NCBI RefSeq assembly: GCF_005377625.1
Contig: NZ_CP040098.1
Coordinates: 3,027,279 to 3,091,278, forward strand
DNA from: Desulfoglaeba alkanexedens ALDC
GTDB lineage: Bacteria; Desulfobacterota; Syntrophobacteria; Syntrophobacterales; DSM-9756
Direction: 5' to 3'
Length of the DNA: 64,000 bases
In this document: piece by piece, positions 46,589 to 64,000 of the stretch
How the letters are laid out: every line of letters starts with the position of its first letter
Numbering within the stretch: the first letter of the stretch is position 1
Position numbers and translations under genes: made by a program
Notes under the pieces: generated by a model
Told to the model about the DNA's origin: nothing
Seen by the model: the letters and a program-made list of their open reading frames with translations, nothing else
Databases searched by the model: none

Positions 46589-48274
46589 CTATTCGCGGAG
46601 GGCTCCATATTTGAGCAGGATGTCTCTCTTGGAGATGGATTCAGGAACTCCGGTTGGCATGCGCACATTTGTTCCGCATAGGATGAAAACCTCGTAGGCG
46701 TCGAAAATGGCGTAGCGGTCTCCCTCGAAGACAATGAGCTTGTTGCCGTTCTCCTGCCTGACCTTTTCGCGGAACTTGCGTATTCCAGTCTCCTGGCCCT
46801 TTTGTGCGAGCTTGTCCTGTTGATCCATCCATGTTTGAAAGGCGGCGGTAAGTGCCATCATGAGCACAGTAAGGTAAACATGGGATCGGAACGCGTCGGC
46901 ATTGTTTCGAGCCGGTCGTTCTATGAACCAGGCTTGCTTTGCCTCCCGGAACAAAGCGTTTTCTATTTCACTGCGGGCGTCATAAGCGTCGTAGACCTCG
47001 AGGGGTTTTTGCACCGAGCCATTGGTGAGGATGACGAGCGTGTCGGAGTCGGGATTGTTGCGTTTGAAAGGGTCGTCGAGTACCACCACAGCATTGAGTG
47101 GATTGGCGGTGAAGTCTTTGCGATTCTGATGACTGCCGCTGCCGAGCTCTCCATAGAATCCGGCCGAGGTGAGGGCTTCGATGCCCACAACGTCCCAGTG
47201 GTCCACAACGGTCGTCTTGTTCGATCCTTTACCAACCGAGCGGGCTTTCTCCCGGGTTTCCCGGATACCGCCGGCGGTAAGCGAAACAGCATCGGCATAG
47301 ACGTCCATGTTGGTTTTGGCTGGAATATAGAAAGTGATGTGCATGGTGTCATGGAGCCACCATAGGAACTTGCCGTCTATGAATCCACGGTCCATGGCCA
47401 AAGAGACGATGGTGGCATGATCCGCAAGGTTTGTGACGGCCTGCTGCACCACTTCACCGGCAAAGTCGACATCGCTCACTTCGATCGTTGCGAACCGCAG
47501 AGCAATAGGAAGGCGGCTTGCAGGGTCCCAGACCACCCATATTTTGAAGCCAAAAACGGTTTCCAGCACCTTTCGGATGCGTTTCTTCCGTCGCCGCAGC
47601 TCGGGAGCTTTTTCCTTGCTAACCTTGCCGCACCCCCGGCATCGCTCCGTGGACTGGATTTCCGAAGAATCCATGAGTGCATGGATTTTTTTGGGGAAGA
47701 AAGAATGGGCCGCCAGGATCGTCACAACGCCGTTGAAGAGCCGCTCCAAGGCACTGGCGGCGATGGCCTGGATGTAGGCGGCGATGGAATCCGGGCAATA
47801 GGGGCCACGGATGGGGGTAGGCCGCGGATCATCGCGGGATGGGTCAGAATCGTCGCAGGGCTCGGCAACAGGCTTCTTCCGACCTCTGGCAGAGGTTCCT
47901 TCACGGACCTCTCTGCCATTGAACCCTACCAGTCGCATGAGGGACTGAGAGGAGAGAATCACCGGATTAATGTGCCAAAAGAAGCGGAGCCCGGCGACGA
48001 TGCGCATGAGGTAGATGAGGATCACGGCGGGGAACTTGATATTGCTGGAACGCTGATTCCTGTTGGGATCAAGCCCCATGAAAAGCTTCATGATCCCGAG
48101 CTCTTCCAGAAAGTAGAAGAACTCGTCGAAAAGACCCGCTTCTCCGAGCCCATAGACCTCGGATATCTCCTCGCGCTCGGCAAGGTCCGAAGCGATTCCA
48201 GCCTGATCCCTGGAAGCCGTGCACCAACTGAGACGCTCGATAATTTTCTGCGACGCTTCAGCTATCGGGTTCAT
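46589..48274 (-). CDS. DDE transposase (IS4/IS1634-like)
   Basis: This is a 561-residue transposase. Candidate catalytic residues are Asp in HALMDSSEIQ, Asp in LAMDRGFIDGKFLWWL and Glu in YDARSEIENALFREAKQAWF, the last fitting the Y-(2)-R-(3)-E-(6)-K signature of IS4-type enzymes. A CRGCGK motif precedes the catalytic core. AAGGAGG precedes ATG 48274. The frame is intact, so the element may be active, but I could not define its ends. Confidence 0.82.
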   Translation of the reverse strand: MNPIAEASQKIIERLSWCTASRDQAGIASDLAEREEISEVYGLGEAGLFDEFFYFLEELGIMKLFMGLDPNRNQRSSNIKFPAVILIYLMRIVAGLRFFWHINPVILSSQSLMRLVGFNGREVREGTSARGRKKPVAEPCDDSDPSRDDPRPTPIRGPYCPDSIAAYIQAIAASALERLFNGVVTILAAHSFFPKKIHALMDSSEIQSTERCRGCGKVSKEKAPELRRRKKRIRKVLETVFGFKIWVVWDPASRLPIALRFATIEVSDVDFAGEVVQQAVTNLADHATIVSLAMDRGFIDGKFLWWLHDTMHITFYIPAKTNMDVYADAVSLTAGGIRETREKARSVGKGSNKTTVVDHWDVVGIEALTSAGFYGELGSGSHQNRKDFTANPLNAVVVLDDPFKRNNPDSDTLVILTNGSVQKPLEVYDAYDARSEIENALFREAKQAWFIERPARNNADAFRSHVYLTVLMMALTAAFQTWMDQQDKLAQKGQETGIRKFREKVRQENGNKLIVFEGDRYAIFDAYEVFILCGTNVRMPTGVPESISKRDILLKYGALRE

Positions 48275-49142: not shown

Positions 49143-49559
49143 GACTAACCTCCTTACGATTCAGTTAAGTAAGTGAATACGAGTGTATAAGCATATAATG
49201 CATTGCTCACCGGAGAGGGCCGCTTTTTGGCCCGAATCCAGTGGAGCAAATGGTTGGGCAATAAGCAATTCCCGAAGCCTCTGTAAAGGCTTGAAAACCG
49301 GGCCTTGAAGGATTTGGTTTTCGCAAACCCGGAGGGTCATTTCGGGCTCCGAAGGGGGTTTCGGCGGTGAACTTTTCAACCATTTTGGTCTTTCATGCTG
49401 GACCACCGGCTCAAATTAAATTTAGCCTTCTGATGTGAATTTTTTCAACCATTTTCGTTTTTCCCGCTGGAGAGCAGCCCGCGTCTTTGCCAGGTTACCC
49501 TGCCATGAAGCCCGGCAAAGACGCTCCTTCCTCCAAGATCCGACTTCGCAAGCATCTGA

Positions 49560-49784
49560 ATGCAGATGGCTCTGGTGAGGGCGGTGCGCCGTGAGTTCGA
49601 AAAGATCCCCGATCCCCGAAAGGGCAGGCCGCAGATCTCCTTTGCGGATGCGGCCATGAGCGCCTTCGCCATGTTTTCTTTGAAGGATCCCTCTCATCCG
49701 GCCTTTGAGAAACACTGGTCGGCTCGGGATCACAACCTGCACGCGCTCTACCACATCTTCTATATTGAAGTTGAACGGGGGTGA
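49560..49784 (+). pseudogene. ISNCY-like transposase N-terminal fragment (left arm)
   Basis: These 74 residues read REFEKIPDPRKGRPQISFADAAMSAFAMFSL and on to NLHALYHIF, matching the start of ISNCY/IS1202-type transposases. The frame then ends at an early stop and the catalytic part is missing. The identical fragment lies inverted at 62770-62994. Confidence 0.7.
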
Positions 49785-50195
49785 GGTATGTCCGAAAACA
49801 GATCGAAGCCGGGCGACCGAGGCCTTACCACAGATTTTGAAATACCTAGCTCCTGCAAAAAAATCATGAAGAATTAACAATTTGTCCCAGAATAGGTTTT
49901 ACTAGCCTTTTGTAGGAACCGGCTTGCCGGCGACCAGGGATTCGGATTGCTGTCCTTTCTTTGTCAGATAGGCTGCCGGTGGTATCTTGAAGCCGACCTT
50001 GGTACGAAAGCCCTTGATGGAGGACCAAGATTCCAAAAGAGTGACATCAACGGATATGCACGAACTATGTTTGGTTTTTGCAACACTCTGTTAAGGTGAC
50101 CGCAACATGACAATATAGCACATATATCTGAGACGTACTGGAAAGATGGGTTTAGCCATCACTTTGCTCTTCAGGAGAGGGTGCAACTTTTTTTC
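49785..50195. other. Gene-free part of the left arm
   Basis: It contains a REP-like TTGTAGGAACCGGCTTGCCG near 49912 and, before the riboswitch, TTTTTTTCTTGACC (50190-50201), a possible -35 region. The -10 that follows (TAGAGG) is weak. The same T-rich TTGACC sequence occurs at about 58376 in repeat copy 8. Confidence 0.45.
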
Positions 50196-50239
50196 TTGAC
50201 CTCTAAAAAATGATGATTTAGAGGAGCAATAAATTGAGA

Positions 50240-50402
50240 GTGGCCCTCGGGCCTTGAAAGGGAAGACGGTGCGATTCCGTCGCGGACCCGCCGCCGTGAC
50301 CGGGGACGAAAGCCGCAATCAAGCCACTGCTCGCAAGGGCGGGAAGGCGCGGCGAGTAGGATGATCCGGAAGCCGGAAGACCTGCTTTCAAAGAGATAGG
50401 GC
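50240..50402 (+). ncRNA. Cobalamin riboswitch 1 (left, upstream)
   Basis: This stretch carries cobalamin-aptamer hallmarks in order: AAAGGGAAGACGGTGCGATTCCGTC, then GACCCGCCGCCGTGACCGGGGACG, AAGCCACTGC, and the B12 box AAGCCGGAAGACCTGC. It is followed 56 bases later by an intrinsic terminator, so it looks like a transcription-attenuation riboswitch that turns off when cobalamin is abundant. An open frame on the opposite strand here is spurious. Confidence 0.9.
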
Positions 50403-50458
50403 TGCCTGGCTCCTCGTGGATGTGGGGGCGCGGCATCTAAAAGTGGGATTAAAAACGG

Positions 50459-50497
50459 AATCCCCGGACGCAGACTATGTGTCCGGGGATTTTTTTA
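50459..50497 (+). terminator. Intrinsic terminator between tandem riboswitches (left)
   Basis: TCCCCGGAC (50461-50469) pairs with GTCCGGGGA (50481-50489), followed by seven T. The hairpin is strong and the U-tract good. Confidence 0.85.
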
Positions 50498-50545
50498 TGC
50501 GTGAAGGGGGTAAGGGATCTAAAAAGGAAAATCTTTAGTTTAGAG

Positions 50546-50692
50546 ATGTTCCCGGATCAAGGGAAGGAAGTGGAAAGCTTCCGCCGCCCCGCGACTGTAA
50601 TCGGGACGAAAGCCGCAAATATGTCACTGTCCTAAAAGGACGGGAAGGCGCGGTGAGTAGGATGAACGAGAGCCAGGAGACCTGTTCCGGAA
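50546..50692 (+). ncRNA. Cobalamin riboswitch 2 (left, adjacent to btuB)
   Basis: A second aptamer follows in the same direction: CCGCCCCGCGACTGTAATCGGGACGAAAGCCGC, GTCACTGTCC, GGGAAGGCGCGGTGAGTAGG and the B12 box GAGCCAGGAGACCTG. It ends about 40 bases before the receptor ATG with no second terminator, so it may control translation by masking the ribosome site. The first receptor start lies at 50735. Confidence 0.9.
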
Positions 50693-50734
50693 GCGTTGGA
50701 TCTTCAAGACCTTCGAGGGAAAGGGAAGAAGAAG

Positions 50735-52666
50735 ATGAATAGATTTATATTATGCGTTCTCCTGATGTTGATAGTCATTTTTTTACCGCACGTTGCCACG
50801 GCGCAAGGACCGGCAGAAGCAACGGAGAAAACCAGGCAAAGCGAGCAAGGTACGGTTGTTCTTGAATCCATTACTGTCACAGCCGAACGCTTTCCGGTGG
50901 AAGAAAGAGAAAGCCCACGCTTTGTTACGGTGGTGAGCTCCGATGAACTCAAGGAAACCGGCGCCAATAACCTGGTGGACGCCCTACGCCGTGTGGGCGG
51001 CCTTTCTTATAGTGCATTCGGCGCCATGGGGGTCAGCCATGGCGGCATGAACAGCAGCGTCTCGATCCGCGGCATCAAGGACGGCGAACTGGTGCTAATA
51101 AACGGCGCCCCCATCCAAGGGGCGGCCGGACACGCCTATGACCTCAACACCATTCCCATTGACCAGATCGAACGTATCGAAATCATGAAGGGAGCGGCCT
51201 CCACTCTTTACGGCGCCGATGCCATGAGCGGGGTCATCAATATCATCACCAAGAAGCCGCGACGGGTGACGGCCTTCAAGGGATCTGTGGAGTTCGGCAA
51301 CGAGTCTTACCATAACCACAGCGTCTCCGCTTTCCTGCCCGGCTTTAATGTCGGTTTGAATTACCAGCATCTGGGGAATCAGACCGAGATCTCCAGGAGT
51401 TTCACTAAGAAATACCGCTATGACCAGGACGACATCGACAAGTATGCCTGGAACCTCAACGCGGAACCGATGAAGAACCTTTATCTGGATTATCTTGGAT
51501 CCTATTACGAAACCGGCTTTGAGAAGCATTACGACGGAAATGCAAAACCTTATGAGGGAACCGATCAAGAACATCAAAAAAACTTCGCCAACCTCCGATA
51601 CGAAACCCCTACCTTCAGCGCCAAGGCCTTCGGTACTTATGATGAGATGCAGCGCAAAGAATACACCAATCCCGGTGACCCGAAGGATCGGAACAAGAAC
51701 TACAACTTCGGACTCAATGGCGACTACCGGTTCCGACTCTTCGACTGGCAGATCAATGTGGGAAGCGAGTGGGTCTACCGGGGTGCGGACTACAACAACA
51801 AGTACGGCGAGCACCATCGAAACGATGTCGCTCCTTTCCTTCAGGTGAAAAAGACCTTCCGGGAACGCCTGACTGCGACCTTGGGGGCGCGGGAGCAATT
51901 CGTTCTGGGGGAATCCGGAACCGACGATTACGACCGTTTCCTGCCCAGCTTTGGTCTCACCTATAAAGCCACGGACGCACTGAACCTTTTCGCCAATGCC
52001 GGAAAGGCCTTTCGCGCGCCGGACTTCAACGACCTGTACTATGAAAGCACCTTTCTGGTCGGCAATCCCAACCTCAAGCCGGAAGAGGGCTGGACCTACG
52101 AGGCAGGTGTAAAATATGACGATGACATGTTCCGCCTGCGCTTATCCGGCTTTTACATGACCTATAAGGACAAAATCGAGTTGGACCGTTCCAGGGGCTA
52201 CCCCCAGACGTACATGAACGCCGGAGACTATGAAAGCAAAGGAGTCGAATGGGAATTTGGTGTCAACCCCTTCGTCCGTAACTTCAAGCAGGTGTGGATG
52301 CGTGACATTTCCGTTTATGCAGCCGGATACTGGGCGGACCCCACGGCCGAAGACCCCGACGGCAGGGAATACCAGACCGGGCCCAAACTTCAGACCAGTC
52401 TCGGCGTCAATTACCTCAGCGAGCCGCTGGTGCTGGATCTGAACTCCCAGATCCTTACATCCAGGGAGCGCGATCTCGACAGCTACTCAGTGCTCAATTT
52501 TTACGGAAAATGCAGACTCCGGAAGGGCTATCTGACCTTCAGCGTGGACAACATCTTTGACGAAGAGGTTCAGGTTTACGGCGATCTGACGGAAGACGCA
52601 TCAAATCGGTATGCCTATTACGAGGTGGAGCGGCTTTTCAAGGTGGGATATGAAATCGATTTTTAA
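50735..52666 (+). CDS. btuB: TonB-dependent corrinoid receptor (BtuB-like), copy 1
   Basis: This 643-residue outer-membrane receptor has a signal peptide (residues 1-23, ending ATAQ), a TonB box-like ESITVTAERF, a plug domain with GVINIITKK and a C-terminal 22-strand barrel ending in Phe (EIDF). Placement under two cobalamin riboswitches makes corrinoid the likely ligand. GAGGGAAAGGGAAG precedes ATG 50735. The gene overlaps the CobN-like gene by 17 bases. It is one of two such receptors in the island, about as long as family members (610-680). Confidence 0.9.
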   Translation: MNRFILCVLLMLIVIFLPHVATAQGPAEATEKTRQSEQGTVVLESITVTAERFPVEERESPRFVTVVSSDELKETGANNLVDALRRVGGLSYSAFGAMGVSHGGMNSSVSIRGIKDGELVLINGAPIQGAAGHAYDLNTIPIDQIERIEIMKGAASTLYGADAMSGVINIITKKPRRVTAFKGSVEFGNESYHNHSVSAFLPGFNVGLNYQHLGNQTEISRSFTKKYRYDQDDIDKYAWNLNAEPMKNLYLDYLGSYYETGFEKHYDGNAKPYEGTDQEHQKNFANLRYETPTFSAKAFGTYDEMQRKEYTNPGDPKDRNKNYNFGLNGDYRFRLFDWQINVGSEWVYRGADYNNKYGEHHRNDVAPFLQVKKTFRERLTATLGAREQFVLGESGTDDYDRFLPSFGLTYKATDALNLFANAGKAFRAPDFNDLYYESTFLVGNPNLKPEEGWTYEAGVKYDDDMFRLRLSGFYMTYKDKIELDRSRGYPQTYMNAGDYESKGVEWEFGVNPFVRNFKQVWMRDISVYAAGYWADPTAEDPDGREYQTGPKLQTSLGVNYLSEPLVLDLNSQILTSRERDLDSYSVLNFYGKCRLRKGYLTFSVDNIFDEEVQVYGDLTEDASNRYAYYEVERLFKVGYEIDF

Positions 52667-55600
52667 GCCTCACAGTGCAATGCGGCCATGGCCGGGCCTT
52701 GCGGTGGTATGCGCCCCGGCTCTGGCGTTCCTGCTTCTGACGGGAGCAGCGGCTTCGGCGCAGGGGAATACCATCGGTTTCTTTGTCGGTGACTCCGACG
52801 CCTACACCTGCGTGCAGGCCGTCAAAAAGCTCGACCTGCCGCAGGTGGAGATCGGCGTTTTCACCGAGGAAGACGTCGCCGATCCCCGAATGGCGGAGTT
52901 TGTCAAGCGCATGGATATCGCGGTGGTCGACATCATGCCGCGCCAGCCGGGGGAATGGCTCCTGGCCAACATGGCCGCTCTTAAGCCGGAAGCCATAATC
53001 TACGCAGTGCGACATTCCAGTCACACCAGGGATTATCTGGACGCCGGCTTTATCATGGACCCCACGGTTCAGAGCTACTTCCAGTTCACCTCGGTCCGGA
53101 ACCTCACCCGCCTGATCCAATTCTTGGCCAAACGCGATTTAAGGATGGCTGTCGAAACGTCTCCACCGGATCTCCCGCCCCAAAACGCCCTCTACCACCC
53201 TGATGCACCCTCGCTCTTCGCGGACCTGGAGTCCTATGCGGCATGGTACCGGCAAAGCGGCCGATATCAGGAGAAGGGTTTATGGGATTTGATGATAGTC
53301 TTTCCCACCTCCCCCATTGATTCCAAAAAGGAGCCGGTGGACGCCCTGGTGCGGGCATACGAAGCAAACGGGATCAACACGGTCGTCTGGCTGCGGGATA
53401 TGGAGGGGTGGGACAAGACCTTAGAGCGCCTGATTTCTTCTCCTCCGCTGAAAGGCCGCTTGGGCTCCGTTACCGGACTGACCTTTAAATTCAGCTCTAC
53501 GCTCTCCGCCGATTTGCTGCCGATCCTTCAAAAAGCGGACGTTCCGGTCTTCAATCCCCAGATGATTTTCTTTTCCACCGGCGAGGAGTGGTCGGCCTCC
53601 AGTCAGGGTATCTCACCCGTGGGGATATCCTTGCAGTTTTCCGTGCCCGAACTTTCCGGTCTGGTGGAGCCGACGGTGATCGGTGTCAAGGAGCGCGTGA
53701 CAACCGACTCTCTAGAGGTCAACACCTATCGCTACGTGCCGGTGACGCCCCTGGTGGAAAAAATGGCGCGCCGGGCGGCTCGCTGGCACCGATTGCGGCA
53801 GATGGAAAACAAGGACAAAAAGATCGTCCTGGTCTATTACAACCACGGGGCCGGCAAACAGAATATCGGCGCAAGCTATCTCAATGTCTTTAGAAGCATC
53901 CGCGAAATCATCCAGGCGATGCAACGGGAAGGCTATCGTATTGAGGGTGAGCTCACCGAAGAGCAGGTCATGGAACTGCTGCTCAAATCCGGTCGTAATA
54001 TCGGTTCCTGGGCCCCGGATGAACTGGACCGCCTGCTTCGGGAGGGAAACGCGGCTTTTGTGGACATGGCCGACTACCGGCGCTGGCTGGCCGAGACCCC
54101 GCCCGAATTTCAAAAAAAGGTGATAGAGCAGTGGGGAAGGCCGGAGGATTCCAACATTATGGTCAAAGACGGCCGGTTTGTCATCCCCTGCGTCCGGCTG
54201 GGCAACCTGATCCTGGTCCCCCAGCCGGTCCGGGGCTGGAGCGATGATCCTGAAAAACTCTATCACAGCACCGTACTTTATCCCCACCATCAGTACATCG
54301 CCTTTTACCTGTGGCTGCAAAAGGTCGTCAAGCCGGACGCCATGATCAGCCTGGGAACCCACGGCACCCACGAATGGCTACCCGGAAAGCAGGCCGGATT
54401 GAGCCATATCTGTCCGCCGGAGGTGCTGATCGGCGATATTCCCAGCATCTATCCCTATATCGTAGACGATGTGGGCGAGGGGCTGCAGGCCAAGCGTCGG
54501 GGCCGGGCCGCGATCGTCGATCACGCCACGCCGCCGTTTAAAAAAGGCGGTATTTACGAAGAATATTCCAACCTGGCCGCCTTGATCAGCGAATATGAAT
54601 CCTCTGCTTCGGAAAAGATCCAGGCGGCCAGACTGGAGCGGATTCGGGAGATGACCTTGAAACTCGGCCTGGACAAGGACCTGGATCTTAAGGTGGTGGA
54701 TGACGACGCCCTGGAAAGAATTGAGCATTACCTGTTGGAACTGAAAACCGAGATGATCCCCTACGGGCTCCACACCTTCGGGGTCTCTTGCCAAGGGGAA
54801 GGACTGGAAGAGACCGCCGCGGCCATCGCTTCCAAGGGTGGTCGATCGGTGGACTTCTACAAAGCGCAGCTTACAGAATGCGGGCCGTCGGAGATGGCAA
54901 ATCTAATGCGCGGCCTGCGCGGCGGATACATTCCCCCGGCATCGGGAAACGACCCTATCCGCAACCCCGAAAGCCTGCCTACCGGCAAAAACTTTTACGG
55001 CTTTGATCCGGACAAGGTGCCTTCCAAGGAGGCTTGGGCGAACGGGGAGAAGGCGGCAAACGAAGTGATCGAAGCCTACCGGCGGAAGCATGAGGGCAAA
55101 TTTCCCGAACAGATCGGCGTGGTGCTATGGGCGGTGGAAACCATCCGGGACGAGGGGATCAATGTGGCTACCGCCTTGAAGCTCTTGGGAGTGCGCCCGG
55201 TCTGGGACCACCGCGACAAGGTGACCGGCGTGGCTCCGATTCCCGGAAGCGAGTTGGGACGGCCGCGGATCGATGTCCTCCTTCAGATGTCGGGGCTGTT
55301 CCGGGACACGTTCCCAACCGTGGCGCTCCTGCTGGACAAGGCCGTCAAGCAGGCGGCGGTGCTCACCGATGTGGAGAATTTTATAAAAAGCCACAGCGAA
55401 GAGATCCGCCGGCAACTGACAGAGCACGGGTACACGGCAGAGGAGGCGGAAAAGCTCTCCCTGGTGCGGCTTTTCAGCGCTCCGCCGGGGGCCTACGGCA
55501 CCAAGGTCGATGATATGACCGGGGCAAGCGGTCTCTGGGAAGACGACCAGGTGGTGGCCGAGCAGGGCTTTATCGACATGGTTTCCTACGGCTATTCCAC

Positions 55601-56627
55601 GGAGATCTGGGGTAAGCCGCTGAAGGAGGTGTACCGAGGCAACCTCAAAAAGGTGGATGCCACCCTACATTCCATCGGCTCCAATCTCTACTCGACCATG
55701 GACAACGACGACATGTTTCAGTACCTGGGCGGGCTTTCCATGGCGGTGCGCAAGGAATCGGGCAAGGACCCGGACGTCTATGTCTCCATGCAGAAAACGC
55801 TCGGTCAGGGCCACGTCGAACCGCTTGCTACCACCATCGGGCGGGAATTGCGCACCCGGTATCTGAACCCCAAATGGATTGCCGGGATGAAAGAGGAAAA
55901 CTACGCCGGCGCCCGGGAGATGGCGGAATTTGTCGAAAACATGTGGGGCTGGCAGGTGACCACGCCCAATGCCATCGACAAAGCCAAGTGGGAACAGACC
56001 TATGAGGTCTACGTGGAAGACAAGTACGGTCTTGAGATCGAAGAATTCTTCAACCGGGCAAACCCCTGGGCCTATCAGTCCATCACCGCCCGCATGCTGG
56101 AGGCTATCCGCAAGGGCTATTGGGAAGCGGATGAAAGAGTGAAAAAGAAGCTGGCTGTCGAATATGCCGTTAACGCGGTCGAAAAGGGGGTGGCCTGCTG
56201 CGATCACACCTGCAACAATCCTCTTTTGAATCAGATGGTGATGAATGTCATTTCTTTGCCCGGCGTACTCTCGCCGGAGGTGGTGGAACAATTCAAGCTG
56301 GCCGTGGAACAGTCGGCTGGAAAACCGTTGGATAAACTGGCGGCAGAGCGAGAGGAACTTTTGAAAGAGCTTCAGGATGGATTGCGCAAGGCGGCTCCTA
56401 GCGCCTCCGATCCGGCAACGGAAGCAACGGAGGCGCGGACCGACCGGGCCGAGGCCGCCCGCGGAGACGTGGCCCAAGCGGTGGAGGGCTACAAAATGGA
56501 AGAGATGAACCAGAAGGATGAGACCACGAATCTGCCCTCTTCGGGCGTTCAATGGGTGGCGTCACTGTTTGTGCTCCTGATTATCGGGTTGTTCGTCTGG
56601 GGGACGCGACGTAAACGACGAAAGTAG
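52650..56627 (+). CDS. Exported, membrane-tethered CobN/HmuS-like chelatase
   Basis: This 1325-residue CobN/BchH-type protein starts at ATG 52650 with AGGTGG upstream, inside the end of the receptor gene. A signal peptide (1-37, AAASAQG) is followed by the large chelatase domain with GTHGTHEWLPGKQ near 568 and ACCDHTCNN near 1183. A variable acidic linker and a C-terminal helix (VQWVASLFVLLIIGLFVWG) with RRKRRK tail follow, so the body is probably periplasmic. CobN normally works in the cytosol with CobS/CobT; none are here. Bacteroidete HmuS, a related CobN-like protein, sits in a similar gene set (TonB receptor, ExbB-like, DUF2149). Confidence 0.88.
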   Translation: MKSIFKPHSAMRPWPGLAVVCAPALAFLLLTGAAASAQGNTIGFFVGDSDAYTCVQAVKKLDLPQVEIGVFTEEDVADPRMAEFVKRMDIAVVDIMPRQPGEWLLANMAALKPEAIIYAVRHSSHTRDYLDAGFIMDPTVQSYFQFTSVRNLTRLIQFLAKRDLRMAVETSPPDLPPQNALYHPDAPSLFADLESYAAWYRQSGRYQEKGLWDLMIVFPTSPIDSKKEPVDALVRAYEANGINTVVWLRDMEGWDKTLERLISSPPLKGRLGSVTGLTFKFSSTLSADLLPILQKADVPVFNPQMIFFSTGEEWSASSQGISPVGISLQFSVPELSGLVEPTVIGVKERVTTDSLEVNTYRYVPVTPLVEKMARRAARWHRLRQMENKDKKIVLVYYNHGAGKQNIGASYLNVFRSIREIIQAMQREGYRIEGELTEEQVMELLLKSGRNIGSWAPDELDRLLREGNAAFVDMADYRRWLAETPPEFQKKVIEQWGRPEDSNIMVKDGRFVIPCVRLGNLILVPQPVRGWSDDPEKLYHSTVLYPHHQYIAFYLWLQKVVKPDAMISLGTHGTHEWLPGKQAGLSHICPPEVLIGDIPSIYPYIVDDVGEGLQAKRRGRAAIVDHATPPFKKGGIYEEYSNLAALISEYESSASEKIQAARLERIREMTLKLGLDKDLDLKVVDDDALERIEHYLLELKTEMIPYGLHTFGVSCQGEGLEETAAAIASKGGRSVDFYKAQLTECGPSEMANLMRGLRGGYIPPASGNDPIRNPESLPTGKNFYGFDPDKVPSKEAWANGEKAANEVIEAYRRKHEGKFPEQIGVVLWAVETIRDEGINVATALKLLGVRPVWDHRDKVTGVAPIPGSELGRPRIDVLLQMSGLFRDTFPTVALLLDKAVKQAAVLTDVENFIKSHSEEIRRQLTEHGYTAEEAEKLSLVRLFSAPPGAYGTKVDDMTGASGLWEDDQVVAEQGFIDMVSYGYSTEIWGKPLKEVYRGNLKKVDATLHSIGSNLYSTMDNDDMFQYLGGLSMAVRKESGKDPDVYVSMQKTLGQGHVEPLATTIGRELRTRYLNPKWIAGMKEENYAGAREMAEFVENMWGWQVTTPNAIDKAKWEQTYEVYVEDKYGLEIEEFFNRANPWAYQSITARMLEAIRKGYWEADERVKKKLAVEYAVNAVEKGVACCDHTCNNPLLNQMVMNVISLPGVLSPEVVEQFKLAVEQSAGKPLDKLAAEREELLKELQDGLRKAAPSASDPATEATEARTDRAEAARGDVAQAVEGYKMEEMNQKDETTNLPSSGVQWVASLFVLLIIGLFVWGTRRKRRK

Positions 56628-56636
56628 GAGAAAACC

Positions 56637-57377
56637 ATGGAATGGAAGAGCCTAGTGCTGGGAATTGCGTTCTGCGTGGGCATCTTCGCCGTCAAAAGCG
56701 GCGTGGGGCTCTCTTACTATATGTCCAAGACCACTTCCTCTCATGCTAGAGCGGTCGCATGGGCGGGGTTTGCCGCGACATATCTCCTGGTTTTCGCGGC
56801 TTGTGGCTACACCCTGGAAAAAATCGATCTGATGCAGCACCTGGTTGCCATTCAGGAGTGGATTCAATCGGGTATGCTGGTGCATCTGCTCATGGCCGCA
56901 ATGCTCCTTCTCTGGGGGCTGCGATTGCTGCGGGAAAACGGAGGCGCTGCCGGTAAAAGCCGCGGATGGATTTTGCTGACCGTCCCTTGCCCGGTCTGCG
57001 CCATGGTGATTCTTTTTTCCGTGGGCTTCATGACGGCTGCCTTCCAGGAATCGCCCCTCACAACGGCCGCCTTGCTCTACTTGGTTTTTCTCTTGATCAA
57101 CACGGTTACCGTAAAGATTATGAGCGCCACACGGAATCGGGAGTCGCCGGAATCGTTTCTGGGGGTGTCCATGTTGGCCATCGCGGCCTATTTTTTCCTT
57201 TCCGTAACGATCATGCCCAATATCGCCGACGCGGACAAGATCTACCAAATGGCACTGTATCCTTCGAATGCGGCCTTCGAAGAACCGCGGCGGCTTTTAG
57301 TCTTTGTAGTCGGCATGCTGGCCGCGTTTCTGTCCGTCTTCGGCATCACATTTCTTCGGATAAGGAAAATGGCATGA
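56637..57377 (+). CDS. DUF2162-like multispanning membrane protein with CPVC motif
   Basis: This 246-residue protein has about seven hydrophobic helices, a pattern I associate with DUF2162, a putative transporter family often near CobN-like genes. The helix LLTVPCPVCAMVILFSVGF has a CPVC pair in the membrane, a possible metal- or redox-active site. It starts nine bases after the chelatase stop and shares ATGA with the next gene. It could be a channel or transporter, or a motor subunit. The DUF assignment is from memory of the pattern and should be tested. Confidence 0.7.
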   Translation: MEWKSLVLGIAFCVGIFAVKSGVGLSYYMSKTTSSHARAVAWAGFAATYLLVFAACGYTLEKIDLMQHLVAIQEWIQSGMLVHLLMAAMLLLWGLRLLRENGGAAGKSRGWILLTVPCPVCAMVILFSVGFMTAAFQESPLTTAALLYLVFLLINTVTVKIMSATRNRESPESFLGVSMLAIAAYFFLSVTIMPNIADADKIYQMALYPSNAAFEEPRRLLVFVVGMLAAFLSVFGITFLRIRKMA

Positions 57378-58024
57378 CAGCAATCGGCGCTTTCCTGAAA
57401 ACCTTCATTTACCTGATTTCCGCTTCCCTGCTCTACCCGGTGCTGTTGCTCTTGTCGGTTCTCTGTCTGTACATCATCGTCTGTGGCGGAACCTTTTTTG
57501 CCGAGTGGTTGGAACGAACCAGGCTCCACAAATGTCCCCCACAGGACCTTCCGGATTTGCTTGCCAACGGTGACCCCTCGGCAGTGGTCGCTCACCGGGT
57601 CAATCGATACATTAAAACGCTTTTGCAGGTCATGCGCCGAAATGACGGCGTGGATGCGGCCGTTGAAAACCTCCTTCAGCAGGAGACCCTGATGCTCTGG
57701 AAGTCGATCGATCGCCTTTGGCTTCTCGTCCGGGTAGCCCCGGCCTTGGGCCTGCTCGGCACCTTGATTCCCATGGGAACCGGCTTGGCGGCCCTGGGCC
57801 AAGGCGATATGACGCAGCTTTCCGCGGACTTGGTGGTCGCGTTCACCACCACTGTTGCCGGTCTCGCCGTCGGGACCGCGGCCGTCGTCATGTACACGGT
57901 CCGGCGACGCTGGATCGAGGAAGACGTGAAGAATATGGAACTGGCAACCGAGCTGCTGACATTGCGAACCGAGAGAGACAAACATGCGTTATTTGAAAAA
58001 ACGGCGAATGAGGCACATCGGTAA
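57374..58024 (+). CDS. MotA/TolQ/ExbB-family proton channel protein
   Basis: This 216-residue protein has an N-terminal helix pair, a cytoplasmic loop and the family signature APALGLLGTLIPMGTGLAALGQGDMTQLSADLVVAFTTTVAGLAVGTAA, which contains the conserved TolQ/ExbB transmembrane helices. Such proteins form the pentameric stator that uses proton motive force to drive TonB, TolA or the flagellar motor. It starts at ATG 57374, coupled to the DUF2162-like gene and overlapping the next gene by 41 bases. No TonB gene is present. Confidence 0.88.
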   Translation: MTAIGAFLKTFIYLISASLLYPVLLLLSVLCLYIIVCGGTFFAEWLERTRLHKCPPQDLPDLLANGDPSAVVAHRVNRYIKTLLQVMRRNDGVDAAVENLLQQETLMLWKSIDRLWLLVRVAPALGLLGTLIPMGTGLAALGQGDMTQLSADLVVAFTTTVAGLAVGTAAVVMYTVRRRWIEEDVKNMELATELLTLRTERDKHALFEKTANEAHR

Positions 58025-58343
58025 AGGACCTGGAGAACCGGCTTTCCAGGAAGACGATCCCATGACCGGCGTTGCAAACTTGTTTGACATCGGGTTGGTC
58101 TTCATTGTGGGGCTTATCATGGCGCTTTTCAGCGTCTATCATCTTCAGGACCTTTTCAGCGAAACTTCTTCATTTACCATCGTCAAGCAAAAACCGAAAA
58201 CCGAGGAGATGGAGATCATCACCAAAGAGGGCAAGAAGATCAAAGCCATCAAAGTGACCAAAGCCACGGTTCAAGGCCGGGGCCAACGCCTTGGTACGGC
58301 TTACAAACTGGAAGACGGGACCATGGTCTATGTGCCGGAATAG
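57984..58343 (+). CDS. DUF2149 protein with ExbD-like membrane helix
   Basis: This 119-residue protein has one N-terminal membrane helix (NLFDIGLVFIVGLIMALFS) with Asp35 in the position of the proton-carrying Asp of ExbD, TolR and MotB. A C-terminal periplasmic domain (about 60-119, with EMEIITKEGKKIKAIKVTKA) follows. This matches DUF2149, whose members lie next to ExbB-like genes. With the upstream protein it should make a proton-driven stator. GAGAGA precedes ATG 57984. Confidence 0.82.
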   Translation: MRYLKKRRMRHIGKGPGEPAFQEDDPMTGVANLFDIGLVFIVGLIMALFSVYHLQDLFSETSSFTIVKQKPKTEEMEIITKEGKKIKAIKVTKATVQGRGQRLGTAYKLEDGTMVYVPE

Positions 58344-58368
58344 GAATAGTAAGTGGAACGAATCAAGA

Positions 58369-58640
58369 GGGTGCAAATTTTTTCTTGACCTCCCAAAAAT
58401 GAGCACTTTCCCCCTCGTTCCCAAGCTCCGGCTTGGGAACGCCCTGCCCGGGAAGCTCCAGCTTCCCTCCTGCTACAGCTGAAACTCGCTGTTTTTCTAG
58501 GGAGCTCGTCAGGATCTCGAAGTGGTCGTTCCCCTCGTTCCCAAGCTCTGGCTTGGGTACGGCCTCACCGAAGCTGGAGCTTCTGCACAGTTGTGTTCCC
58601 AAGCTGGAGCTTGGGAACAAGAAGAAAAAGATCTGCACCC
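58369..58640. mobile_element. MITE-like repeat, copy 8, inside the B12 island
   Basis: A 272-bp copy from GGGTGCAAATTTTTT to AAAAGATCTGCACCC with several CCAAGC..GCTTGG palindromes and the GGGAAGCTCCAGCTTCCC hairpin also in copy 4. Flanks GAATCAAGA and GATCTCCAA do not match. Its left end resembles sequence before riboswitch 1 (GGGTGCAACTTTTTTTCTTG near 50178-50200). Confidence 0.72.
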
Positions 58641-58741
58641 GATCTCCAAGTGGTCTCTGTGGGTGAAGACCGAGATCCACGCTACGATAGTAGATGTGAC
58701 AAAGTAGTGGGTGTCTGGCTTCTTTGTTATGGATTTTGTAG

Positions 58742-58808
58742 CGGGTTTGCGAAAACCAAATCCTTCAAGGCCCGGTTTTCAAGCCTTTATAGCAGCTCCG
58801 GGAATTGC
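58742..58808. repeat. About 67-bp repeat, middle copy
   Basis: CGGGTTTGCGAAAACCAAATCC and on to CCGGGAATTGC. It recurs in inverted orientation at 49266-49332 and in the same orientation at 63042-63109. Here it supplies the last ten codons and stop of the cbiZ-like gene. Confidence 0.8.
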
Positions 58809-59678
58809 TGTTGCCCTGGTGAAGTTTTGACGTGATTCTTTTATCTGCTTGAAACCGTTTTGTTTTTGCAGCGCCTCCATGACCCCTTCATGGACGGCCT
58901 TGCCAATGAGCTCCCCGATCTTGCTGTGTCCGCCTGTGTAGGTGACCTTCGGCCCGTTGACGCCTGAGACCACAATCGCGTTGTCCGTGCCTGTTCCGGT
59001 CGCCTGGACCGATTCCGTGTAGGAACTCTGGACGCCGAGATCCTCGAAGGCCGCGGTCTTTGCCTCGGTGAGCGTGATGATCGCCCGCGCCATGGCCCCG
59101 TCCGTAAGCTCGGCATTGGTCAGGAGGATGACGTTGACTGTTCCGTGGGGTTCTTTATCTCCTGTTTTCCCCTCGATGTGCTTTCCTTCATCCACCCCGG
59201 TGCGGAGGGCGTTGGTCCTGGCTCCTGCGGTCACCAGTGCGGTCACCACGAAGGGAGGGTACCGCTTCGTTACAACGGCGAGGTTCTTCATGTCCGCGGC
59301 TGTGCCGAGCTGGGCGATCTTTTCTTCCGGCACCCCGCTTTCCATGGCGATCCTTTTCTTGATCCCGCGCATGTAGACCTTGCCGCCCACTTCATCCCTG
59401 GTCTTCATCTCCTTACAGACCTTTTTGAAAAGGCCGGGATGGGCGGAATGGTTCACGGCGATCCTGCCCTGGATGAGGCCATCGTTCGTGGAAAGCATCC
59501 GTCTATCCTCAGGGAAGGTGACGACAAGGGTCTTTTCCCAAAATCCGTCCCTTTCGGCCACCTTTATGAAGGCTTTGGCATCGAGTTCAGCAGGAAGCTG
59601 GATCTCCTCTGATGCCCCTGCCGAAAGTGTGACAAGGAGCAGGATCAGGGTAAAAAATACCGACATGGTTCGTTTCAT
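58779..59678 (-). CDS. cbiZ: Exported CbiZ-like adenosylcobinamide amidohydrolase
   Basis: This 299-residue protein has the CbiZ signatures VTAGARTNALRTGVDEG, VNVILLTNAELTDGAMARAI and ATGTGTDNAIVVSG. CbiZ cuts the amide bond between the corrin ring and the aminopropanol arm, giving cobyric acid for corrinoid remodelling. Unlike classical cytosolic CbiZ, it has a signal peptide (residues 1-22, SAGASEE), so it should act in the periplasm. Its start is ATG 59678, with AAGGAG upstream. The C-terminal AIPGAAIKA is encoded by a repeat, so the original C-terminus is altered. Confidence 0.88.
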   Translation of the reverse strand: MKRTMSVFFTLILLLVTLSAGASEEIQLPAELDAKAFIKVAERDGFWEKTLVVTFPEDRRMLSTNDGLIQGRIAVNHSAHPGLFKKVCKEMKTRDEVGGKVYMRGIKKRIAMESGVPEEKIAQLGTAADMKNLAVVTKRYPPFVVTALVTAGARTNALRTGVDEGKHIEGKTGDKEPHGTVNVILLTNAELTDGAMARAIITLTEAKTAAFEDLGVQSSYTESVQATGTGTDNAIVVSGVNGPKVTYTGGHSKIGELIGKAVHEGVMEALQKQNGFKQIKESRQNFTRATAIPGAAIKA

Positions 59679-59765
59679 ACCTTCTCCTTTTCTCCAAACA
59701 GGATGGAATCCCCACCTTTCCCCCTTTATCAAGGGTAACGAGGGGCGAATCGGTATTCATCTGGA

Positions 59766-61817
59766 TCAGATGTCATATCTTAGGCCGAGGAAGAAGCTTC
59801 TGCCCGGCATGGGGTAGTTCTTGACGTATTCGTAGTCCTTGTCAAAGAGGTTGTTGATCTCTCCCCTCAGGGTGAGGCCACCGAACCGGTCAAAGTCAAG
59901 AATCTTCTTGCTCATGGTAAGGTTAGCCACGGTGAAGCCCCCCTCCTCGACAACCGGGGCCACCCACGTAGGCGGCCCGGCACCCAGCCAGTCGTCCACA
60001 TCCTTTTTCCCCGTATAGGCGAGGTTGAGAGCAGCGGTGAAGTCCTTCCGGTTAGAAACCCGGAGTCCGTATGAGACGTTGGCCTCCTCCGTATAGAGGA
60101 GGTCCTTTCCGGTCTCATCATCCTCGTATTTGAAAAGATAGGTGAAGTTGGCATAAGGCCTTATTTCGTAGCCCCATGGGAAAAAACCGCCGATGTCCCA
60201 GGAGATCTCGCCCTCGAGGCCGTCTATGTCCGCGCCGCCGGTGTTTTCCCACGTCATTATGCCCCCTGGTCTGGATACGGACTGGATCTTGTCCTTGAAG
60301 TCCGTCCAGAAAAAGGTCATGGATGCGTTGAAGGAGCGCCGGGAAAGATCGAACCCGACCTCCCAGGTTTCGCTCTTTTCTGGGTCGAGATCAGGGTTTC
60401 CAAGGTAATGAACGTAACTGGTGTAGTCGTAGGCCAGCTCATTCGCCGCCGGCATCCTGAAGCCTTCGCCGTAGTTGGCCCTGAGCTTGAGGTAATCCGT
60501 CAGGAGAAAGGCGACCCCAAGGCGGGGGGTGATCTCCTGATCGTCTTCATTGCGTCCGCGCGGTTCTTTCATTTCCACGTCGTACCAGTCGATCCTGAAG
60601 CCGCCGGTGAAGATGAGCCTTTCATCAAGGAATCTGAGCTTGCCGAGGAGGTAGCCTGCGGTGTTGTCGTACTCGCTCTTTTTGGGGTCGTATGTGGCAT
60701 CGATTTCGTAGTTGTCCCAGTTGAAACCGGCTACAAGGCCCACATGATCCGTGTCAAAGGCGACCTGGGCCTGGGCCCCTTCCTGTTCGGTCTTGGTCAG
60801 TGTTGGGATCCCGTCATCCCAGCCGTCTGGATCGCTTGACATGCGGTCAAACCATGTATCCTCGTCCTCGCCGTCGAAATACCTCGCCATCCAGGAGAAG
60901 GTCCCGCCAGGGGTCCGGCCCTCGTACATGAAATCCAGCGACTCGTTATCCGCGTCCTTATAGTCGTCGAGGTCGTTTTTTGCCAGATATCCGGGGTCTC
61001 CGATGCCTTCCCCATCGTAGTCGTTGTATATGACGCCGATCCGGTGACCCGGCAGGAACTCGTAGCCAAGATTGACATAGACGTTTTCCTGGCGGGAAAA
61101 TCCGGTGTTTTCGTATTGGTCACCGCTGGCGGTATCGTAGTCATCCATCGAGCGATGTTCATATGTGCCGTAGAAATCGACCCCCTTGGTATTGGCCGAA
61201 AGACCCATCGCTTCAGCATCATATTCCCAACTTGCGAGGCCTCCCTCTAGAAATGCGGAGTTATCCACGCCACGTTTCGTGATGATATTGACGACCCCGC
61301 CCATGGCCGCCGAGCCATACTGAACCGAGGCCGGACCCCGAATGATCTCGATCCTTTCCACGTTGTTTCGAATCATGAGCTTGGCCGCATTGCCCGTGGC
61401 TGCGCGTCTTCCGTTGATGAGGATGAGTACGTGGCCCATGAGATCGTTTCCGTGGGTCTCGGTCCGAAACCCCCTGATGCCGACGGCGGTCAGCGCGCCG
61501 GGATAATTCTGGATATGGCCCACGGCCTTTTCTGCAAGGATCTCCCCAAGGGTATGAGCGCTCGAGGCCTTGATCTCCTCCTCGTCAATGACCGTTATGT
61601 TCGCGGTAACCTCTTTGGCCTTCTCTTCGACCCTGCTTGCCGTGACGACGATCTCATCAAGGGTAAGGGCAGCCTTCACATCGCCGTCGGCGGCGAGCGT
61701 CTGATCCAGCGGCAGCATGGTCAGCAGCACGGCGGCCAGAACGCAGGCCGCCCATTTTGATCCTCGGTTTTTTGCCGCCGCTACCGCGGCCCTATCGCCC
61801 CATCTTTGTACCTTCAT
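59766..61817 (-). CDS. btuB: TonB-dependent corrinoid receptor (BtuB-like), copy 2
   Basis: This 683-residue receptor has a signal peptide (LAAVLLTMLPLDQTLAADG), a TonB box LDEIVVTASR, a plug with VRGPASVQYGSAAMGGVVNIITKRG-type sequence (here EIIRGPASVQYGSAAMGG) and a barrel ending LGLRYDI. CGGAGG precedes ATG 61817. It lies 87 bases upstream of cbiZ in one operon, under the right-arm riboswitches. It is divergent in sequence from copy 1, so the two may take different corrinoids. Confidence 0.9.
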   Translation of the reverse strand: MKVQRWGDRAAVAAAKNRGSKWAACVLAAVLLTMLPLDQTLAADGDVKAALTLDEIVVTASRVEEKAKEVTANITVIDEEEIKASSAHTLGEILAEKAVGHIQNYPGALTAVGIRGFRTETHGNDLMGHVLILINGRRAATGNAAKLMIRNNVERIEIIRGPASVQYGSAAMGGVVNIITKRGVDNSAFLEGGLASWEYDAEAMGLSANTKGVDFYGTYEHRSMDDYDTASGDQYENTGFSRQENVYVNLGYEFLPGHRIGVIYNDYDGEGIGDPGYLAKNDLDDYKDADNESLDFMYEGRTPGGTFSWMARYFDGEDEDTWFDRMSSDPDGWDDGIPTLTKTEQEGAQAQVAFDTDHVGLVAGFNWDNYEIDATYDPKKSEYDNTAGYLLGKLRFLDERLIFTGGFRIDWYDVEMKEPRGRNEDDQEITPRLGVAFLLTDYLKLRANYGEGFRMPAANELAYDYTSYVHYLGNPDLDPEKSETWEVGFDLSRRSFNASMTFFWTDFKDKIQSVSRPGGIMTWENTGGADIDGLEGEISWDIGGFFPWGYEIRPYANFTYLFKYEDDETGKDLLYTEEANVSYGLRVSNRKDFTAALNLAYTGKKDVDDWLGAGPPTWVAPVVEEGGFTVANLTMSKKILDFDRFGGLTLRGEINNLFDKDYEYVKNYPMPGRSFFLGLRYDI

Positions 61818-61863
61818 CTTTTCCTCCGTTTCCCGCCCGCGCGGGTTTTCCGAGTGTGGTATT

Positions 61864-62010
61864 CCCGGAACAGGTCTCCTGGCTCTCGTTCATCCTACTC
61901 ACCGCGCCTTCCCATCCCTTCAGGACAGTGGCTTTGTCGCGGCTTTCGTCCCGATTACAGTCGCGGGGCGGCGGAAGCTTTCCACTTCCTTCCCTTGATC
62001 CGGGAGCATC
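61864..62010 (-). ncRNA. Cobalamin riboswitch 3 (right, adjacent to btuB copy 2)
   Basis: Minus-strand aptamer matching riboswitch 2: CCGCCCCGCGACTGTAATCG, then GCCACTGTCC, GGGAAGGCGCGGTGAGTAGG and GAGCCAGGAGACCTG. It ends about 47 bases before the receptor ATG at 61817. Confidence 0.9.
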
Positions 62011-62057
62011 TCTAAACTAAAGATTTTCCTTTTTAGATCCCTTACCCCCTTCACGCA

Positions 62058-62096
62058 TAAAAAAATCCCCGGACACATAGTCTGCGTCCGGGGATT
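62058..62096 (-). terminator. Intrinsic terminator between tandem riboswitches (right)
   Basis: The inverted copy of the left terminator: minus-strand TCCCCGGAC..GTCCGGGGA hairpin followed by seven T. Confidence 0.85.
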
Positions 62097-62156
62097 CCGT
62101 TTTTAATCCCACTTTTAGATGCCGCGCCCCCACATCCACGAGGAGCCAGGCAGCCC

Positions 62157-62319
62157 TATCTCTTTGAAAGCAGGTCTTCCGGCTTCCGGATCACCCTACT
62201 CGCCGCGCCTTCCCGCCCTTGCGAGCAGTGGCTTGATTGCGGCTTTCGTCCCCGGTCACGGCGGCGGGTCCGCGACGGAATCGCACCGTCTTCCCTTTCA
62301 AGGCCCGAGGGCCACTCTC
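62157..62319 (-). ncRNA. Cobalamin riboswitch 4 (right, upstream)
   Basis: Minus-strand aptamer matching riboswitch 1 (AAGCCACTGC, GGCGCGGCGAGTAGG, AAGCCGGAAGACCTGC). Together with riboswitch 3 it forms the second tandem pair. Confidence 0.9.
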
Positions 62320-62769
62320 AATTTGTTGCTCCTCTAAATCATCATTTTTTTGAGGTCAAGAAAAAAGTTGCACCCTCTCTTGAAGAGCAAAGTGATAGCT
62401 AAACCCATCTTTCCAGTACGTCTCAGATATATGTGCGATATCGTCATGTTACGGTCACCCTAACAGAGTGTTGCAAAAACCAAATATAGTTCGTGCATAT
62501 CCGTTGATGTCACTCTTTTGGAATCTTGGTCGTCCATCAAGGGCTTTCGTACCAAGGTCGGCTTCAAGATACCACCGGCAGCCTATCTGACAAAGAAAGG
62601 ACAGCAATCCGAATCCCTGGTCGCCGGCAAGCCGGTTCCTACAAAAAGCCAGTAAAACCTATTCTGGGACAAATTTTTAATTCTTCATGATTTTTTTTTC
62701 AGGAGCTAGTATTTCAAAATCTGTGGTAAGGCTACGGTCGCCCGGCTTCGATCTGTTTTCGGACATACC

Positions 62770-62994
62770 TCACCCCCGTTCAACTTCAATATAGAAGGTG
62801 TGGTAGAGCGCGTGCAGGTTGTGATCCCGAGCCGACCAGCGTTTCTCAAAGGCCGGATGAGAGGGATCCTTCAAAGAAAACATGGCGAAGGCGCTCATGG
62901 CCGCATCCGCAAAGGAGATCTGCGGCCTGCCCTTTCGGGGATCGGGGATCTTTTCGAACTCACGGCGCACCGCCCTCACCAGAGCCATCTGCAT
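62770..62994 (-). pseudogene. ISNCY-like transposase N-terminal fragment (right arm)
   Basis: Same 74-residue fragment as at 49560-49784, with two residue differences (RWSARD and HTFYIEV). It is truncated and inactive. Confidence 0.7.
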
Positions 62995-63307
62995 TCAGAT
63001 GCTTGCGAAGTCGGATCTTGTCGGAGCCCGAAACGACCCCGCGGGTTTGCGAAAACAAAATCCTTCAAGCCCCGCTTTTCAAACCTTTACAGGGGCTACG
63101 GGAATTGCTGACTAACCCCCATGCCCGGGCACGGGCAGAACGAAGGATGAAAATTCGCGATACGGGGCAGTGGGGTAAAGCCCAAAAACATGGCACAATA
63201 AGCAATCGGCATTATTGGTGAATCTTCTATTTTCATGTAAAAATTATAAAATAAAGTTTTTCAAAGAGCGAAATATACGGTAGAAGAGGATAGACAAATC
63301 GGAATTC

Positions 63308-63760
63308 GTGTGCGATAAATGGAATGAAATTTTTCTCTATCCTGGGGGCCATCGGTTGGAGTGCTGCCAAGTGAGCAAAGACGGGACAAAGCTTTATCAG
63401 GCCGAGGCTCAAGCCTGCCGACAGTGTGAAACCCAGCCCCGGTGTTGCCGTTCGAAGTCTGGTCGCCCTCGAACCGTCAAAATCGATAACTACGAGCACT
63501 TGCGTCAAGCAATGGCACGCAAGATGAGTGAACCGAAAGCGCGGGAAGCCTATCGCAGACGCAAGGCGTTTGCGGGACCCGTCTTTGGGCACATGAAAAA
63601 TCTTGGGTTTCGAGGTCTACGCCTGCGGGGTCTGGAAAAGGTCAAGGGCGAGTTTGCCCTGATGAGCGCTGCTCACAACTTCCTGAAAATTGTGAGGGCC
63701 GTGGTGAGGGGTATCCATTTCGAGCAGGGGCAGATGATGGAGCAGGCTGCCTCAAGAGGC
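63308..63760 (+). pseudogene. IS1182-family transposase C-terminal fragment
   Basis: The sequence CRQCETQPRCCRSKSGRPRT, REAYRRRKAFAGPVFGHMKN and GLEKVKGEFALMSAAHNFLK matches the C-terminal end of IS1182-type transposases (cysteine-rich block, then the Glu-like EPVFGQIK region, here GPVFGHMK). The catalytic N-terminal part is absent. The open frame starts at GTG 63308 and ends at 63871. No gene follows to the window end. Confidence 0.7.
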
Positions 63761-64000
63761 AGCTTGCTCCTTTTTGAATGCCTTTTCAGAGACTGCTTAT
63801 GCACGACATCCCCCATCCGCGAGCAAAGACTTTCTCGTTACGGTAGTTTCACCCGACATGTTTGCTTATGAATTATGTATGGCTCGAATTCCAAGCCACA
63901 TTCTCGGACAAACTCTTAGCTTATTTTCAAGGGGAAAATTCCAATTCCCGTTGAACCAAGGCCGTCTTGGTCAAGAATGAACTATAAAACAAGGAGGATT

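Follow-up and report, generated by a model that had tools for sequence, protein, structure and literature searches.

The gene cluster described here lies in a 64,000-nucleotide stretch of the Desulfoglaeba alkanexedens ALDC genome (contig NZ_CP040098.1), called the window below, with positions counted from its first letter. Two convergent operons were identified (Table 1). The forward operon encodes a TonB-dependent receptor, a CobN-like chelatase, a DUF2162 membrane protein, an ExbB-like protein and a DUF2149 protein, and the reverse operon encodes a second receptor and an exported form of the amidohydrolase CbiZ. All parts claimed in a first-pass annotation (CobN-Mg_chel, DUF2162, MotA_ExbB, DUF2149, CbiZ and two receptors) were matched by Pfam profiles. 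The locus was confirmed as real, with every claimed part far above chance, and an artefact was rejected. The cluster is repressed by cobalamin (B12) and linked to corrinoids, as indicated by its riboswitches, by CbiZ and by recurrent BtuF–CbiZ fusions in its relatives. On balance, the cluster as a whole probably serves cobalamin-repressed processing of corrinoids in the periplasm and forms the sister, on the corrinoid side, of the hmuRSTUV system for heme.

Operon leaders, receptors and exported CbiZ

Four cobalamin riboswitches (RF00174; Rfam gathering score 31.5 bits) were found at the locus, a tandem pair ahead of either operon. The riboswitch control proposed for the convergent operons was borne out by more elements than had first been stated. 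The operon leaders, riboswitches included, are inverted copies of approximately 1.4 kb, mostly 97-98% complementary, which flank approximately 11 kb. Recombination between these repeats could invert both operons, and gene conversion would maintain the likeness of the leaders. Transposase-like open reading frames (ORFs), judged by eye, are located on either flank (46589-48274 and 63308-63871).

Both receptors had been labelled BtuB-like. Their assignment as TonB-dependent receptors stood, whereas BtuB identity was not established by the sequence itself, since neither reached an NCBIfam cut-off among the matches listed; the label was owed to the riboswitches. The top NCBIfam scores of receptor 2 among these matches were for hemin-type models, below cut-off.

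The CbiZ match covered positions 2-191 of 191, and the start of the protein resembles a signal peptide (MKRTMSVFFTLILLLVTLSAGA). Relatives of the module were collected via a survey of DUF2149, which combined a phylum sample, 80 named loci of a genome-wide scan and plasmids into 109 unique loci. CbiZ occurred in 58 of these loci, 52 of which carried a BtuF–CbiZ fusion composed of Peripla_BP_2 and CbiZ domains and an unassigned C-terminal part. A hydrophobic N-terminal segment was present in 55 of 56 fusion proteins, indicating that the export of CbiZ is recurrent and no quirk of the window. The proposed export of CbiZ was upheld, and a periplasmic location of the window protein is supported by its predicted signal peptide. 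A putative activity of this protein is to convert adenosylcobinamide or pseudo-B12 into cobyric acid by hydrolysis. A search of the papers available found no description of BtuF–CbiZ fusions. The C-terminal portion of approximately 130 residues in these proteins had no Pfam match (L076:10199-12274, L071:7936-9996 and similar).

Table 1. Features of the locus, in window positions.
Feature	Position	Strand	Remarks
Inverted repeat, left arm with leader 1	49264..50690	+	
Cobalamin riboswitch 1, operon 1	50221..50403	+	RF00174, 109.6 bits
Cobalamin riboswitch 2 (tandem), operon 1	50537..50704	+	RF00174, 91.8 bits
TonB-dependent receptor 1	50735..52666	+	Pfam Plug, TonB_dep_Rec_b-barrel; likely start ATG 50735, ORF opens TTG 50696
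CobN-like (BtuS/HmuS-type) class I chelatase	52611..56627	+	PF02514, 1058 bits
DUF2162 membrane protein (HmuT position)	56637..57377	+	PF09930, 130 bits; intramembrane PCPxC motif, invariant columns
ExbB-like stator protein (HmuU position)	57341..58024	+	PF01618 (MotA_ExbB), 57 bits; start uncertain
DUF2149 protein (HmuV position)	57984..58343	+	PF09919, 107 bits; invariant transmembrane Asp35
Exported CbiZ	58779..59732	-	PF01955, 168 bits; N-terminal hydrophobic segment; likely start ATG ~59678
TonB-dependent receptor 2	59766..61817	-	Pfam Plug and TonB-dependent barrel domain
Cobalamin riboswitch 2 (tandem), operon 2	61852..62036	-	RF00174, 94.2 bits
Inverted repeat, right arm with leader 2	61865..63109	-	
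Cobalamin riboswitch 1, operon 2	62152..62334	-	RF00174, 109.2 bits

Lineage and metal site of the CobN-like chelatase

The window CobN-like protein carries a signal-like N-terminal segment and a C-terminal transmembrane (TM) helix as an anchor, in agreement with the first reading of the sequence. A simple hydropathy test was applied to the relatives. A C-terminal TM helix was detected in 95 of 96 stator-linked CobN-like proteins and a strong N-terminal hydrophobic segment in 80, whereas the canonical CobN proteins that these genomes also encode had neither. These predictions support a periplasmic, membrane-anchored chelatase. In a FastTree phylogeny rooted on one ChlH, the stator-linked chelatases (corrinoid type, HmuS, Runella and Pseudoalteromonas) formed one clade with a support of 0.94, and the AAA+-linked canonical CobN proteins formed a separate clade with a support of 0.995. 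Hence, the partner protein tracks the tree. As expected of BtuS, the window chelatase belongs to neither the CobN nor the ChlH lineage but to a third clade.

The top PDB match of the window protein was HmuS (9d26), a heme dechelatase with catalysis that uses His538, His1209 and Glu1212 (PMC12583661). The column of His538 held His in every aligned sequence (H584 in the window protein). Of the 86 module proteins, 85 have Asp in the column of His1209 (D1034 in the window), whereas HmuS and ChlH have His there; Asp is likewise found in CobN of S. meliloti, Spirosoma and Tsukamurella. Gln occupied the Glu1212 column in 66 of the 86 (Q1037 in the window), and the heme site HGR (His254) of HmuS was found in none of the module proteins aligned. 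This pattern went with the substrate expected for each protein instead of with the phylogeny, and therefore supports a corrin substrate. The comparison contained few characterised porphyrin-type references, and canonical CobN-like proteins of Desulfobacterota have other residues at these columns; the corrin-type signature is thus supportive, short of proof.

Proposed coupling of the stator pair to the chelatase

DUF2149 was present in 38 of 297 genomes sampled across the phylum. An ExbB-like gene adjoined it in 106 of the 109 loci, and a CobN-like gene lay within its operon in 98 (at a distance of at most 3.5 kb in 96 of them), in line with the co-occurrence that the first-pass annotation had named as a check. 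Each of the 11 loci without a CobN-like gene has a contig end near DUF2149. The position of HmuT, termed the T slot, was filled in 91 loci, and canonical ExbD/TonB genes stood beside the module in 24, for example in Trichlorobacter (Geobacter) lovleyi. A B12 riboswitch was counted by hand in 36 of 44 corrinoid-type loci examined, and none was found among the heme loci (Prevotella and Aureibacter), the Runella locus and the Pseudoalteromonas locus scanned. The closest named relative of the window DUF2149 protein, 92% identical, belongs to a Desulfobacteraceae metagenome-assembled genome, and viral contigs yielded no DUF2149 relatives.

The ExbB-like protein is a true relative of ExbB (hhalign, 96.3%) with invariant TM residues. 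The part common to DUF2149 and ExbD was only the TM helix with the invariant Asp (probability 1%), and no recognisable ExbD-like periplasmic domain was seen in this comparison. The operon of the window has no TonB gene. The ExbB-like alignment gave no match in a PDB profile search, and the fold search and PDB profile search with DUF2149 returned spurious matches only. DUF2162 occupies the T slot of corrinoid loci; heme loci have a membrane protein unrelated to it, and Runella has a NicO/HupE-like permease. This variation fits a permease specific for the product or the metal, and DUF2162 is probably a permease for a product. A guess that DUF2162 has a LysE/NicO-type fold was unsupported by the fold search (best E 0.25). 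In Brocadia-type loci the T slot is absent, and the stator and the CobN-like protein are kept.

In the proposed mechanism, corrinoids would enter via both TonB-dependent receptors, driven by the ordinary TonB-ExbBD of the cell. The exported CbiZ, which in relatives is fused to the binding protein BtuF, may then remove the nucleotide loop in the periplasm, and the anchored CobN-like chelatase would act on the corrin at its metal site. Power would come from the ExbB-like/DUF2149 stator, which would use the ion gradient to do conformational work on the chelatase and would replace the AAA+ proteins CobST or ChlID of cytosolic class I chelatases, with DUF2162 as the probable permease for the product. 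In contrast to the published view of HmuU/V, it is most likely the chelatase, and not TonB, that the pair energises, because canonical ExbD/TonB genes are present as well in 24 loci and no ExbD-like periplasmic domain is seen in DUF2149. Coupling to the chelatase is also suggested by the near-constant linkage, by the presence of complete ExbB-ExbD-TonB sets at loci of the module (T. lovleyi) and by the persistence of the stator without a T slot in Brocadia. Moreover, the DUF2149 and CobN families are both present in Methanosarcina acetivorans, an archaeon without an outer membrane, where family presence only was recorded. Purified HmuS does not require ATP and ceases to act after 1-2 turnovers (PMC12583661), which was counted in favour of this mechanism, as were the 9 module genomes, out of 29, that have the CobN family but lack CobT and any strong ChlI/D match. 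The reaction itself has an even chance of being metal removal or exchange, which was preferred because HmuS, the only characterised relative in the stator-linked clade, removes metal. Metal insertion is rather unlikely, and a non-catalytic carrier role is more unlikely still.

Several points weigh against this mechanism. HmuS is active in vitro without a stator, though poorly (PMC12583661). The stator–chelatase coupling was inferred from gene comparison, and linkage to receptors is strong too, with receptor genes in 90 of the 109 loci. The structure model of DUF2149 was of low confidence (predicted local distance difference test, pLDDT, 65), the fold search with the DUF2162 model gave no significant match, and eight tested corrinoid-type loci had no riboswitch. 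The host genome encodes other corrinoid uptake genes (BtuF/FecCD behind other B12 riboswitches) and one ChlI/ChlD-type AAA+ fusion (genome positions 712,556-714,451; TIGR02442, 691 bits, below cut-off). Finally, we know of no enzymatic demetallation of a cobalt corrin.

The ExbB-like/DUF2149 pair could instead be a dedicated receptor energiser that works with a TonB from elsewhere, with the CobN-like protein unpowered beside it. This is the role assigned to HmuU/V, together with TonB, in the literature (PMC12583661, PMC10100974), and it agrees with the frequency of receptor genes, with HmuU being a true ExbB relative and with the in vitro activity of HmuS alone. Nevertheless, it appears doubtful in view of the 24 loci with canonical ExbD/TonB alongside (in T. 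lovleyi ExbB-ExbD-TonB lies within one operon), the lack of a recognisable ExbD periplasmic domain in DUF2149, the absence of the CobN-like gene only close to contig ends, the co-presence of both families in M. acetivorans and the further TonB/ExbD sets of the host genome. A less probable alternative is that the stator pair powers the DUF2162 permease, the CobN-like protein being a non-catalytic periplasmic protein for binding and hand-off. The T slot does vary with the apparent substrate, and protoporphyrin release persists in btuS1 btuS2 mutants of B. fragilis (PMC6460266); however, Brocadia-type loci dispense with the T slot, and the H538A variant of HmuS is inactive (PMC12583661), this His being the one kept in all aligned sequences.

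An ordinary cytosolic CobN cobaltochelatase served by the ChlI/ChlD-type fusion was considered and rejected as very improbable. The window CobN-like protein is the sole family member in a genome that has such a fusion, but export and anchoring are predicted for it, the fusion is unlinked and lies beside meaB- and epimerase-like ORFs, CobT as well as a strong ChlI/D match is missing from 9 of the 29 module genomes (the CobN family being present in all 29), and genomes such as G008 and G014 have canonical CobN and ChlI/ChlD clusters separate from the module. A plain Hmu system for heme or another porphyrin, with the riboswitch as mere cross-regulation, is scarcely credible and was rejected: HmuS is the best PDB match and hemin-type models give receptor 2 its highest scores, below cut-off, but the tandem B12 riboswitches, CbiZ, the BtuF–CbiZ fusions, the absence of HmuY and the unconserved heme-site residues speak against it.

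Known systems and the host genome

The Hmu heme system (hmuYRSTUV, Bacteroidota) shares with the window a receptor, a CobN-family protein with a signal and a C-terminal TM helix, and adjacent ExbB-like and DUF2149 partners; the two chelatases belong to the same clade and have the catalytic His in common. In the window, DUF2162 replaces the unrelated heme-type HmuT, B12 riboswitches and the exported CbiZ are added, and no HmuY domain was found in the seven proteins scanned. The effect of HmuT/U/V on HmuS activity was left open in a 2026 study of P. gingivalis (PMC13227078). BtuS1/2 of B. fragilis, and BtuS of Rodionov 2003 as cited there, have been described (PMC6460266), and Hmu-like operons with B12 riboswitches were judged in 2023 likely to act on cobalamin (PMC10100974). 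These operons combine a B12-regulated CobN-like protein with receptors and HmuT/U/V-like genes, and are most probably of the same kind as the window locus. The texts consulted treat them in passing and in Bacteroidota only, and do not mention an exported CbiZ, BtuF–CbiZ or a stator–chelatase role. An operon of six genes that responds to B12 in Xylanibacter and includes two TonB-dependent receptors (PMC11575231) may be of the same kind.

In T. lovleyi, a CobN without CobST in a TonB cluster was reported in 2012 without an assigned role (PMC3403914). Its plasmid pSZ77/pGLOV01 has tandem B12 riboswitches, a receptor, DUF2162, ExbB-like, DUF2149 and CobN genes as in the window, in a genome without CobST; it differs in adding ExbB-ExbD-TonB to this gene row, and no CbiZ occurred in the stretch read. 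The Runella slithyformis plasmid pRUNSL01 (L216:1794-16052) carries a receptor, a permease, ExbB-like, DUF2149 and CobN-family genes in one row, with a chelatase of the same clade. Unlike the window, this set lies inside the hydrogenase-maturation cluster hypABF...hypCDE, has the NicO/HupE-like permease in the T slot and lacks a B12 riboswitch, and it is probably a nickel version. The plasmid pNC201 of the gammaproteobacterium Pseudoalteromonas (L223:2396-11995) contains a minimal ExbB-like, DUF2149-like and CobN-like set between two receptor-like ORFs, without a T-slot gene or a B12 riboswitch.

CobNST and ChlHID share the PF02514 fold family with the window protein, and CobN has the same Asp..Gln metal-site pattern. 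They are cytosolic, without signal or TM helix, AAA+-driven and in a separate clade, whereas the window has no dedicated CobS/CobT. The ExbBD–TonB energiser likewise has an ExbB-type TM2/TM3 channel protein, but its ExbD periplasmic domain and TonB are not in the operon. The module was therefore already known in part, through hmuSTUV for heme, BtuS and the Hmu-like operons with B12 riboswitches. New with respect to the literature surveyed are the exported CbiZ/BtuF–CbiZ partner, the count of chelatase–stator linkage together with the split into clades, the corrin-type residues at the metal site and the version in Runella.

It is plausible, though held tentatively, that an entire clade of class I tetrapyrrole chelatases relocated to the periplasm and came to be driven by the ion-powered ExbB/DUF2149 stator in place of an AAA+ ATP motor. 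Versions for heme (HmuS), nickel (Runella) and corrinoids (the window locus) would have this motor in common, their differences lying in the receptor, the permease slot and the residues of the metal site. If so, the DUF2149 and ExbB-like proteins that gut and oral Bacteroidota encode in their hmu operons would gain a function, the halt of purified HmuS after one or two turnovers may be explained, and, to our knowledge, the first metal chelatase powered by an ion gradient would be at hand. Furthermore, many anaerobes would remodel cobamides with CbiZ outside the cytoplasm, a point relevant to corrinoid sharing in communities. The idea is directly testable in cultured T. lovleyi, which has the module and no CobST.

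The host genome is a single contig of 3.37 Mb, and the context it provides was missing from the first-pass annotation, whose proposal was sustained in its periplasmic placement, corrinoid linkage and stator–chelatase tie but was not wholly new. A dedicated CobST, or cytosolic CobN-like and CbiZ proteins, had been named there as contrary observations; no CobT (PF06213) was found genome-wide, and both proteins are predicted to be exported. The claimed absence of CobS/CobT and ChlI/ChlD held within the window and not for the genome, given the one unlinked ChlI/ChlD-type fusion. This fusion adjoins meaB-like and methylmalonyl-CoA epimerase-like ORFs with no CobN beside it; equal-scoring relatives occur in the same gene order, even in genomes with a separate CobN-ChlI-ChlD cluster. 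Likewise, the statement that TonB and BtuCDF are absent from the window was incomplete, as TonB/ExbBD, BtuF/FecCD and genes of the anaerobic B12 pathway lie outside it. Three ExbD genes each have a TonB_C match close by; by eye, they form two TonB-ExbBD sets beside receptor-like ORFs and one Tol-Pal set. CbiD and CbiB are present, and ORFs next to CbiB resemble CbiA and CobQ/CbiP by eye. Corrinoid import and anaerobic synthesis are thus independent of the locus, and a late-inserting CobN is therefore unnecessary for de novo synthesis.

Riboswitch matches numbered 12 genome-wide, and others lie ahead of a receptor gene, of FecCD and BtuF-like genes and of a CbiK gene with a signal peptide. The CbiK gene, with an N-terminal signal-like segment, lies downstream of a B12 riboswitch at approximately 285.8-286.8 kb of the genome (L016:15285-16262) and encodes a second B12-regulated chelatase that is probably exported. 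A radical SAM/SPASM protein is encoded directly downstream of another B12 riboswitch in the same genome (L020:16903-18291).

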